A DNA stretch of 64,000 nucleotides from contig CALFCI010000018.1 of the NCBI GenBank assembly GCA_937951135.1, forward strand, positions 1 through 64,000, given 5' to 3'. Below, in pieces: positions 3,847-59,606 of the stretch (position 1 is the stretch's first letter; each line of letters begins with the position of its first letter). Below the pieces are notes generated by a model, which was given only the letters and a program-made list of their open reading frames with translations, was not told the origin of the DNA and made no database searches. Made by a program: the position numbers and the translations under genes. The stretch is from an uncultured Aquimarina sp. GTDB taxonomy: Bacteria > Bacteroidota > Bacteroidia > Flavobacteriales > Flavobacteriaceae.

Positions 3847-3941
3847 ACAATTTACGATTTTAGATTTTGAAATCGCATATTGTAATTCTTAATAGTACCC
3901 TATTCAATATCCGAAAAAGTTATATTCAAATGGTATAATAC
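3847..3941. repeat. dispersed non-coding repeat, copy A (inverted relative to 59499-59606)
   Basis: acaatttacgatttta..gattttgaaatcgcatattgtaattcttaatagtaccctattcaat.tccgaaaaagttata present on opposite strand at 59.5 kb. Confidence 0.85.
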
Positions 3942-18817: not shown

Positions 18818-19069
18818 ACAATGGGTGTTTCTAGAAAGCGGTGCACAGTATATTAAGAATCAAAATAGTTATAAACACCTATATATGCTTAAAAACATGT
18901 TCAATTTATATTCAATATTACTCAATTTTGTTCAAAACAAGTGCCAAGCAGATATAAAAGTTATTGGCAATTATTAACTATTGAAATCCGCAACTATACA
19001 TCACAAATTACACAAGCTAAGAATCTAAGGAATAGAAAATTACAGCTATTATTTTTTTTAGTGTTTCGA

Positions 19070-19236
19070 CTGAGTACATGACAAAAATAGTTGTTCTCGA
19101 TTCAAAGTTGCAGCATCACTTTGTGATCCAGACCTACTAGGTTTCCCAAACCTAGTAGGTCTAACAGGGCAACTAACTATAAAACAATGAGTATCAAAAT
19201 CTAAAGCATAGCGACTGTTTTTTGTCATGTACTCAG
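19070..19236. mobile_element. MITE-like element copy 1 (167 bp)
   Basis: TIR ctgagtacatgacaaaaa.tag / rc of gactgttttttgtcatgtactcag; flanks gtgtttcga / gtatttcga (9 bp, one mismatch). Confidence 0.85.
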
Positions 19237-19424
19237 GTATTTCGAATATAAATTTTACACAAAACAACACTACATAGTTTTACTCCTTGATGCTAAAAAT
19301 AATTTATCTAAAGCATAAAAATAAAAAACACTCTCATAATAAATATGAGAGCGTCTTCAAAAACTCGATAGTGAGTATCGGGGTAATCTATATAATAGGT
19401 GTATATAATACGGTGTAATTTATA

Positions 19425-26581: not shown

Positions 26582-26680
26582 AGAAGTACGCTTACGCTAA
26601 GACTAAAAGAAAATCTAATCATCTCATCTATCCGTCTTAGCCCTTCGATAAACTCAGGGCAGGCCTGTAAGCGTACTTCT
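26582..26680. repeat. inverted repeat element between convergent genes, carrying a cccttcgataaactcag motif
   Basis: agaagtacgcttac (26582-26595) / gtaagcgtacttct (26667-26680). Confidence 0.75.
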
Positions 26681-32382: not shown

Positions 32383-32392
32383 ATTCATTTGG

Positions 32393-32559
32393 CTGAGTAC
32401 ACGACAAAAAATAGTTGTTCTCGATTCAAAGTCGCATCATCACTTTGTGATCCAGACCTACTAGGTTTCGGAAACCTAGTAGGTCTAACAGAGCACCTAA
32501 CTATAATAATGATGATCAGAAACTTAAAGCATAGAGACTGTTTTTTGTCATGTACTTAG
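32393..32559. mobile_element. MITE-like element copy 2 (167 bp) with exact 9-bp TSD ttcatttgg
   Basis: ttcatttgg at 32384-32392 and 32560-32568; TIR ctgagtacacgacaaaaaatag / rc ctaagtacatgacaaaaaacag. Confidence 0.9.
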
Positions 32560-32581
32560 TTCATTTGGTTATAACCAATAC

Positions 32582-34877: not shown

Positions 34878-35020
34878 TACAAGTGTATTTGTGTTTTGAA
34901 TTTTAAAAGTAAGGAATAGAAGTATCGATCAAAAATTAATTTCGATAAAAATGATAATTTGATTGCTATGATGAATTCAAAATGGGTTAGTATTATACAA
35001 TTTACAGATAACTATTTCGC

Positions 35021-35128
35021 TTGAGTACATGACAAAAAATAGTTGTTCTCGATTTAAAGTTGTAGCATCACTTTGTGATCCAGACCTACTAGGTTTTGGA
35101 AACCTAATAGGGCTAACAGAGCAGCTAA
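35021..35128. mobile_element. MITE-like element, decayed/3'-truncated copy
   Basis: ttgagtacatgacaaaaaatagttgttctcgatttaaagttgtagcatcactttgtgatccagacctactaggtttt... matches copies 1 and 2; 3' terminal repeat not found intact. Confidence 0.8.
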
Positions 35129-37772: not shown

Positions 37773-37845
37773 AACTACCTCGGAGCAAGCTCACGAGACA
37801 TTTCGAGGCAAGCCTCGAAGAATTAAACTCCACAATGTGGATTAA
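37773..37845. repeat. palindromic repeat unit, left copy flanking the AlbA_2 gene
   Basis: Contains ttcgaggcaagcctcgaa hairpin and attaaactccacaatgtggattaa, perfect inverse of 39253-39276. Confidence 0.8.
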
Positions 37846-38103
37846 AAAATACTGAAGACTAATTTATACCATTTAATATTTGAATTCACCCAATTAAAAT
37901 GCGCCTTTTGAATGTCTATTTCAGTATAAAAAATAACCGTAGCTTAGGCTATGCTGATTTTTTATATTTCATATACATCCAAAACTCATCATTTTTCTTT
38001 TGAGCAAATTCAAACATAAAATGGTATAAGATAATCTAAGGTACTAATCTTAGTTGATTTTATCGTAAAAAATGACGATATATAAAACATCAAAAGACAC
38101 TAT

Positions 38104-39243: not shown

Positions 39244-39252
39244 TGTTTTACT

Positions 39253-39349
39253 TTAATCCACATTGTGGAGTTTAATGCTTTGAGGCAAGCCTCAAAATGT
39301 TAAAAATAGGTATCCGCTGGATGCCTCCTAAGCTTACTCCAAGGTAGTT
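39253..39349. repeat. palindromic repeat unit, right (inverted) copy flanking the AlbA_2 gene
   Basis: ttaatccacattgtggagtttaat...tgaggcaagcctca...agcttactccaaggtagtt. Confidence 0.8.
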
Positions 39350-39480
39350 TACTTTTTACTAAAATACTAAAACCCTTTTAGATACGTATTGGTTACTCAA
39401 TTGTCAGTATATCTATCAACAAAACAAACCCAGTATAATCATAAAATATTAAATCCAAAATATTATTTTAACTTCAAAAT

Positions 39481-39642
39481 TTTAGTACGTGAGAAAAATT
39501 AGTAGCTGTATTTTATATTTTTGATAATCAACGCTTTAGAGATACTTGCTCTGTTAGACCTGCTAGGTTTTTAGTAGGTCTAAATTATAAAGTGATGATG
39601 CAACTGTACATAGAGAATAACTATTTTTTGTCATGTACTCAG
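39481..39642. mobile_element. MITE-like element copy (162 bp, inverted orientation) with exact 9-bp TSD cttcaaaat
   Basis: cttcaaaat at 39472-39480 and 39643-39651; right end ctattttttgtcatgtactcag, left end tttagtacgtgagaaaaattag. Confidence 0.9.
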
Positions 39643-40372
39643 CTTCAAAATACAATCATAGGTGTAGAATTTATAACTTTTTTTTATTAGTATCACTTTT
39701 AAAAAACTGATAATCAGTATATTTATTCTTATAAGTATAAAGTATTATAAATGAATATTAAAACGAATTTCAATCCTTCAATGGTAATGTTCATAACTCC
39801 AAATAACGGTTCATATCTTATGTGTATAACTAGTTACTAAGATATATAAGTATTATTAGGTTCTTTATTTTTTTATTTCAATACACGTTATACATTCACA
39901 AATCAAAATTTAGTAGTTCTTTTTTTTAGACAAGTTTTGAGACCATAACTTGGAGTTATGAAATATGGTTTTACCGTAAAAAAGTTAAGATTTAATAGTT
40001 AATATAGATATGAACAGTTGTTCATTATTTTTTGTTTCCATAAGATTTTCAATACCTTATCGTAATTTATCTATGTTCATAACACACGAATGAACTTCAC
40101 TAACCAAATAAACCTAATAAAACAGCAAAAAGTTATACCGCTATTCACACTACATCATATACATCATTGTTTTTTTTAATTTTAAAAGAAAAAGAAATAT
40201 ATATATAATATGTGTTCATAAGTAAGTTCCTATTGAAAATTTAAAGATTAAAATAAGGTTTAGATTTAGGATACGTTTTATCTTATGTAATAAATTGAGT
40301 ATTAATTTTTAAAGGTATAAATTATTAATCTTAATAGATAAACTGTACTTTTAGCACTTATAACTATAATTA

Positions 40373-48741: not shown

Positions 48742-48854
48742 GAGAAGAGTGTTTAAAAGTTAGATTATAAAAATAGTGAATTTGTGGTGGATCAATCAGT
48801 GATATAATAAGAAACTATTTTTTAGGACGATACAAGTGCTAAGAAAAGGAGATA

Positions 48855-49020
48855 TACGCTTGCAGCCTGTCCTGAGTTTATCGAAGGGCTAAGACTGATA
48901 GAGAAAAAGACGCGGAGATGAATACACAGCTATTTCAGTACAGCGTCATTTTTGTAACTTTACAGCTAAAATCTTTTTTGTCTTAGCCCTTCGATAAACT
49001 CAGGACAGGCTGTAAGCGTA
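48855..49020. repeat. long inverted repeat (41-bp arms, one mismatch) containing cccttcgataaactcaggacaggct
   Basis: Arms 48855-48895 and 48980-49020. Confidence 0.9.
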
Positions 49021-49069
49021 CGTCTATTCGTCTCTTTTTTGGCAACATGATCTTTGAAACCTTTACCAA

Positions 49070-50581: not shown

Positions 50582-50764
50582 GGTATTTTTTAGTTGATAG
50601 TTGATAGTTGTCGGTTGATAGTTATTTTGAAATCTTTAGCAGTAATGCATATCGATATTTCAGCTCGTATCTAGTGCTACTATTCAACAGATAGAAAACA
50701 GCGTAAAGATACAATCTATATTATTTTGTTTATTTAAAAAATGACAGGAAATTGATAGGAATAT

Positions 50765-50874
50765 CTACTAGGTTTTCAAAACCTAGTAGGGTTGCTGGTC
50801 TTGTTTTATATTTTGAAGCGTCTATCGTTGTTTCATGTTTAAGACCTGCTAGGTTTTCAAAACCTAGCAGGTCT
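50765..50874. repeat. two palindromes: ctactaggttttcaaaacctagtag (50765-50789) and agacctgctaggttttcaaaacctagcaggtct (50842-50874)
   Basis: Perfect palindromes apart from the single central base; same core as inside the MITE-like elements. Confidence 0.9.
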
Positions 50875-59414: not shown

Positions 59415-59498
59415 ATGGAATTAGCACAAAAAAATAAACAGATAATGCATTTAGAGATGAAGTGCGATATACTTCCAAAAAATGTCAATTTTTAAGGA

Positions 59499-59606
59499 TT
59501 ATACAATTTGCATATAACTTTTTCGGAGATTGAATAGGGTACTATTAAGAATTACAATATGCGATTTCAAAATCTAAAATACGAAACCTAAAATCGTAAA
59601 TTGTAT
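59499..59606. repeat. dispersed non-coding repeat, copy B (inverted relative to 3847-3941)
   Basis: Reverse complement matches copy A with a 14-nt internal insertion gtttcgtattttag. Confidence 0.85.

Follow-up and report, generated by a model that had tools for sequence, protein, structure and literature searches.

What dispersed the 167-bp repeat at positions 32393-32559, which carries no transposase gene between its ends? The 64-kb window, by which we mean the whole stretch of DNA analysed, is part of contig C18 of an assembly of 3.1 Mb in 164 contigs that is 78% complete. The original prediction described three complete elements of 167, 167 and 162 bp as a non-autonomous, MITE-like family. 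All three were present, none contained a transposase ORF, and the flanks were as claimed: one pair of 9-bp direct repeats with 1 mismatch and two exact pairs. The count of three window copies was correct for complete elements but overlooked a truncated fourth at 35021-35128. The features are listed below.

32393..32559, + strand: complete MITE of family A (subgroup A1), 167 bp (sequence, genome search, flank check)
32384..32392, unstranded: left target-site duplication of the 32393 element, TTCATTTGG, 9 bp
32560..32568, unstranded: right target-site duplication of the 32393 element, TTCATTTGG, 9 bp, exact
32393..32414, + strand: left terminal inverted repeat, CTGAGTACACGACAAAAAATAG, which agrees with the IS ends of relatives
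32538..32559, - strand: right terminal inverted repeat, CTAAGTACATGACAAAAAACAG on the - strand (sequence)
32454..32486, unstranded: central palindrome of the 32393 element, AGACCTACTAGGTTTCGGAAACCTAGTAGGTCT (fold and genome occurrences)
19070..19236, + strand: complete MITE of family A (A1), 167 bp (sequence, genome search, flanks)
19061..19069, unstranded: left target-site duplication of the 19070 element, GTGTTTCGA
19237..19245, unstranded: right target-site duplication of the 19070 element, GTATTTCGA, 1 mismatch
39481..39642, - strand: complete MITE of family A (A2), 162 bp, hairpin shortened (sequence, flanks)
39472..39480, unstranded: left target-site duplication of the 39481 element, CTTCAAAAT
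39643..39651, unstranded: right target-site duplication of the 39481 element, CTTCAAAAT, exact
35021..35128, + strand: fourth MITE copy, truncated, lacking its right end and the target duplication on that side

The 32393-32559 MITE sits between two converging genes, directly beyond a terminator-like hairpin. The predicted shared ends were common to the elements but not identical everywhere: the 22-bp ends of the 32393 element agree at 19 of 22 positions, and the 39481 element, whose orientation is opposite to that of the other window copies, has a decayed left end (TTTAGTACGTGAGAAAAAT). The truncated copy is 92% identical over 107 bp. When folded, the whole MITE forms a long hairpin (z = -8.0).

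Copy number, target duplications and insertion sites

A search of the host genome with the 167-bp query yielded 40 scored copies. The 18-bp terminal repeat, at ≤3 mismatches, gave 74 + 87 = 161 matches, compared with 4 + 5 = 9 for the reversed-pattern control, which suggests a copy number of ~75 elements. Among the 53 non-redundant paired elements recovered from the retrieved genome stretches, the 9-bp flanks had 0, 1 and 2 mismatches in 23, 12 and 8 copies, respectively (43 of 53 at ≤2), whereas flanks swapped between copies reached these values in 0.2%, 0.2% and 0.9%. The duplication length was exactly 9 bp, with 32 exact matches at 9 bp and none at ≥10 bp (duplicates still included). Consistent 9-bp duplications, on which the original prediction had staked the family, were therefore the rule genome-wide. 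The elements are 142-250 bp long, under the ∼600-bp MITE limit, with terminal inverted repeats of ∼18-22 bp. The elements lie in AT-rich target sites that show a weak symmetric preference, and an ORF of ≥100 aa was interrupted by 0 of 37 testable copies, compared with 57% of random positions. These repeats are confirmed as real gene-free miniature transposons, far beyond chance. Their kind, the bacterial MITE, is well known; the family is new, and no report of it was found in the literature searched. Most of the best family A pairs share 84-95% identity (one pair reaches 98%), and family A target duplications have drifted by ∼7%; judged by this pairwise identity and drift, the copies are old.

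Comparison of the 32393 locus with 50 genomes of the genus yielded no exact empty site; genes on one side have 71-79% DNA identity in genus relatives, and the far side is not syntenic. For one flanking gene, named relatives came only from Thermobacterium salinum and Luteirhabdus pelagi, and no exact empty site was readable in these two either. L. pelagi is placed in the Flavobacteriaceae, and we assume on this basis that the host belongs there too. Comparing the joined flanks of all elements with retrieved host loci turned up nothing beyond self-matches and short matches due to chance. Half an empty site was obtained for the 35021 MITE from uninterrupted copies elsewhere of another dispersed repeat, R2, whose copies in the window are as follows.

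34989..35019, + strand: R2 fragment, ending where the truncated MITE starts (sequence comparison)
59495..59600, + strand: R2 copy
3857..3939, - strand: R2 copy

R2 is ∼106 bp long and has imperfect inverted ends around ATACAATTT; ∼25 substantial copies of it are present genome-wide. The window also holds an inverted pair of a 49-bp repeat at 37798-37846 and 39252-39300 (GAGGCAAGCCTC plus CCACAATGTGGATTAAA), with another copy in locus L190, and direct and inverted GTCTTAGCCCTTCGATAAACTCAGGACAGGC repeats at 48850-48895, 48980-49025 and 26627-26664.

Insertion sequences with the same ends

Searches starting from the MITE ends returned IS4-family elements only. These were IS relatives of ∼1.2 kb, in the same genus and family, that end in CTNAGTACATGACAAAAA. 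ISBf13 of Bacteroides fragilis has one end (CTAAGTACATGACAAAAAT) that is the same as the MITE end. Elements of 1.19-1.21 kb with the MITE ends occur across the family (genomes G095, G106, G112, G318 and G352), and element parts with these ends in G030 and G010. G019 contains a decayed 970-bp element with these ends and a transposase remnant (L085), and G024 a transposase fossil beside a MITE. The same-genus IS in G010 has a reading frame that is intact up to the contig end and ends in CTAAGTACATRACAAAAAT, and its flanks on its two contigs give the 9-bp duplication GAATTTTTT. Two IS copies in G352 have 9-bp duplications (AAATTTGGT and GTATTTTTT) read across contig ends. The duplication was missing in the contig-internal complete IS copies L085, L112, L113, L114, L116 and L139, most of which are decayed.

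The full-length transposases of these relatives scored 233 and 247 bits to the IS4-family model NF033591 (curated cut-off 152) and also matched PF01609; the incomplete G010 protein scored 151.5 bits to NF033591 against the cut-off of 152. The G352 transposase (DDE) carries a Y-x2-R-x3-E-x6-K signature, YRERWQIETLFKALK, and the Y-R-E-K signature is also present in ISAba1 and ISBf13. ISAba1 is bounded by CTCTGTACACGACAAA, and its target duplication, TATAATAAT, is also 9 bp long. Across 400 family genomes, the exact terminal repeat was found in 12, the transposase in 13 and both in 5 (P ∼ 1e-5), and the reversed 18-bp pattern gave 0 matches. The sequence comparisons point to an IS4-family insertion sequence, ISBf13/ISAba1-like, as the putative driver, named at family level only; we take such elements to be the IS10 group by ISfinder usage. 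The original view that the driver could not be named from the window alone was a fair limit, as naming took outside data, and the groups then offered as examples (IS1, IS256 and IS903) do not include the family now named. At the right ends of the IS copies L115, L114 and L242, the element terminates with the three bases of the transposase stop codon, and these IS4-family proteins end in FLSCT-stop within the terminal repeat.

No ISBf13-like transposase was found in the host genome (G000; assembly 78% complete), so the MITEs look orphaned. Assemblies are often interrupted at repeats of 1.2 kb; because of this and the incomplete assembly, true absence is likely, not proven. Probably, either the MITE family is now immobile or the driver IS sits in the unassembled part. 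The host's own PF01609 matches are members of other IS families and do not have these ends, and a fragment on contig C31 matched over 17 aa only.

IS4-family transposases bind the ends of their element, excise it and join it to a staggered-cut target. Such an enzyme would bind both MITE terminal inverted repeats (CTNAGTACATGACAAAAAnn) in trans and, judging from what is known of the IS4 family, excise the element by cut-and-paste; insertion at a 9-bp staggered cut, followed by fill-in, would then leave the 9-bp duplication. We infer the mobilisation in trans, the cut-and-paste chemistry and the present inactivity.

Interiors and the central hairpin

In the host genome, the same ends enclose no fewer than two interiors that are unrelated to each other, those of families A and B. 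Family A is mostly 160-173 bp long, falls into two subgroups, has the central palindrome and shares a full-length interior at a median pairwise identity of 83%. Family B is 142-234 bp long, and its interior is unrelated to that of family A. At C154:2507-2749 the two families are joined in a B/A chimaera, whose 9-bp duplication is exact. In the sister species G024 a third MITE family, of ∼170 bp, shows 13 exact 9-bp duplications and includes derivatives of 110-152 bp in which the hairpin is wholly or mostly gone and the 9-bp duplications are perfect, which indicates that the ends are sufficient and that the hairpin is not required for movement. Since only the ends would matter, unrelated interiors could be mobilised, as in A, B, the chimaera and the third family of the sister species. 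No homology to IS was found in the family A interior beyond the ends, leaving its derivation from an IS unsupported, and family B showed marginal similarity to IS sub-terminal DNA (uncorrected P 0.003-0.05).

The 33-bp palindrome, AGACCTACTAGGTTT-NNN-AAACCTAGTAGGTCT, has ∼40 occurrences and, within the genus, is found only in the host genome; MITEs of G024 carry a hairpin of the same type but of different sequence. Most occurrences are inside family A, and the palindrome stands alone at no fewer than six places:

50762-50790 and 50842-50874, in the window: stand-alone palindromes, 80 bp apart
G000 C1:19838, C41:1966, C61:959, 8524, 14539: other stand-alone palindromes

The 50842-50874 palindrome has a paired A-T to G-C change, and four hairpin pairs are changed on both sides. 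No part of family A varies less than the hairpin arms (1.7%, compared with 10-18% in the body and 4-9% in the ends). The arm-to-flank rate ratio, with target-duplication drift as the flank rate, was 0.50 (95% interval 0.17-1.08, resampling over copies), so that selection on the hairpin is suggestive and not significant on resampling of copies. Template switching between inverted repeats is described as homogenising the arms and keeping their pairing (PMC8604942, PMC8794818, PMC7202029). With arm-to-arm switching known from these sources, selection would be unnecessary to explain a homogenised palindrome. We regard it as improbable that the hairpin represents a REP-like module of its own, mobile or maintained by selection, that was captured into family A and kept paired for an element or host function. 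A link to RAYT was rejected: the host has a Y1_Tnp gene, but the hairpins near it differ from the MITE palindrome. This RAYT-like Y1_Tnp lies at 318-551 of contig C104 (L190), with nearby hairpins CGCTACCGCTAGTATTTACTAGTGGCG. One family A MITE (G000 C62:14516-14735, L073) has a palindromic insert, ATACCATTTTATATTTGAATT...AATTCAAACATAAAATGGTAT, nested beside its hairpin, and this insert recurs near the Y1_Tnp gene at L190.

Alternative explanations and known systems

Taken together, the elements are very probably bacterial MITEs whose ends are recognised in trans by an ISBf13/ISAba1-type IS4-family transposase. The claim of a non-autonomous family has held up, given the genome-wide copies, the constant 9-bp duplications, the unrelated interiors and the autonomous relatives with the same ends. 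Duplication length by itself would fit other drivers, as the IS1, IS256 and IS5/IS903 families also make 8-9-bp duplications. ISAba12 and its MITE are a case in point (PMC6382973), and the match to IS4 ends could in principle be coincidental. However, the exact 18-bp end is common to ISBf13-like elements in several genomes while its reversed pattern is absent from all 400, the ends and the IS4-family transposase co-occur non-randomly, and the ISAba12-type end (GGCTTTGTTGCACAAA) is unlike the MITE end, which makes a driver from another 9-bp-duplication family very unlikely.

Spread without transposition, as RNA or DNA hairpins kept for a regulatory or terminator-like function, would accord with the strong fold (z -8), the low arm variation (1.7% versus 10-18% in the body) with its four paired changes, and the intergenic position of all tested copies. 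Yet exact 9-bp duplications at unrelated flanks require insertion, and the same ends surround unrelated interiors. A search of Rfam found no family matching the MITE repeat, and template switching explains the arms without selection, in keeping with the interval of 0.17-1.08 for the rate ratio. As the sole explanation, function is contradicted by the duplication counts and the hairpin-free G024 copies with perfect 9-bp duplications, and we give it scarcely any credence; the hairpin may have been put to secondary use later. The copies could also be decayed remnants of separate full IS, left by internal deletions rather than amplified as a miniature family, as the degraded 970-bp IS of a relative (L085) and the marginal similarity of family B to IS sub-terminal DNA might suggest. 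But the DNA between the ends holds no remnant of a transposase, and family A shares one full-length non-IS interior (median identity 83%) with independent target duplications, which argues that the interior itself was amplified; decay of separate IS is thus the least credible account.

With mobilisation by an IS4-family transposase as the preferred reading, the driver of a MITE family is put forward at family level, and one IS4-family end is found, within a single genus of flavobacteria, around several gene-free interiors that are unrelated to each other and were presumably mobilised in trans. The family lends itself to the study of MITEs that have apparently survived the loss of their insertion sequence, and it provides a natural substrate set for the minimal requirements of an ISBf13/ISAba1-like transposase. 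Among known systems, the BrickBuilt elements of Porphyromonas gingivalis are likewise a Bacteroidota MITE family and are described with a minisatellite core (PMC4596501), in contrast to the hairpin here. MITECca01 of Cardinium is also a Bacteroidota MITE of high copy number and mostly intergenic, but its driver, the IS982-family ISCca4, is intact and co-resident (PMC9769881). The Acinetobacter MITEAba12 resembles our elements in being gene-free, with 9-bp duplications and similarity to the parent IS limited to the ends; it differs in its length of 113 bp, its co-resident driver ISAba12 and its unrelated ends (PMC6382973). Compared with ISBf13/ISAba1-like IS, the MITEs lack a transposase gene, measure 142-250 bp rather than ∼1.2 kb and have interiors that are not demonstrably IS-derived. 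They nevertheless share the terminal repeat of these IS4-family elements (NF033591; CTAAGTACATGACAAAAAT in ISBf13), and the 9-bp duplication of ISAba1 and of the Flavobacteriaceae IS relatives.
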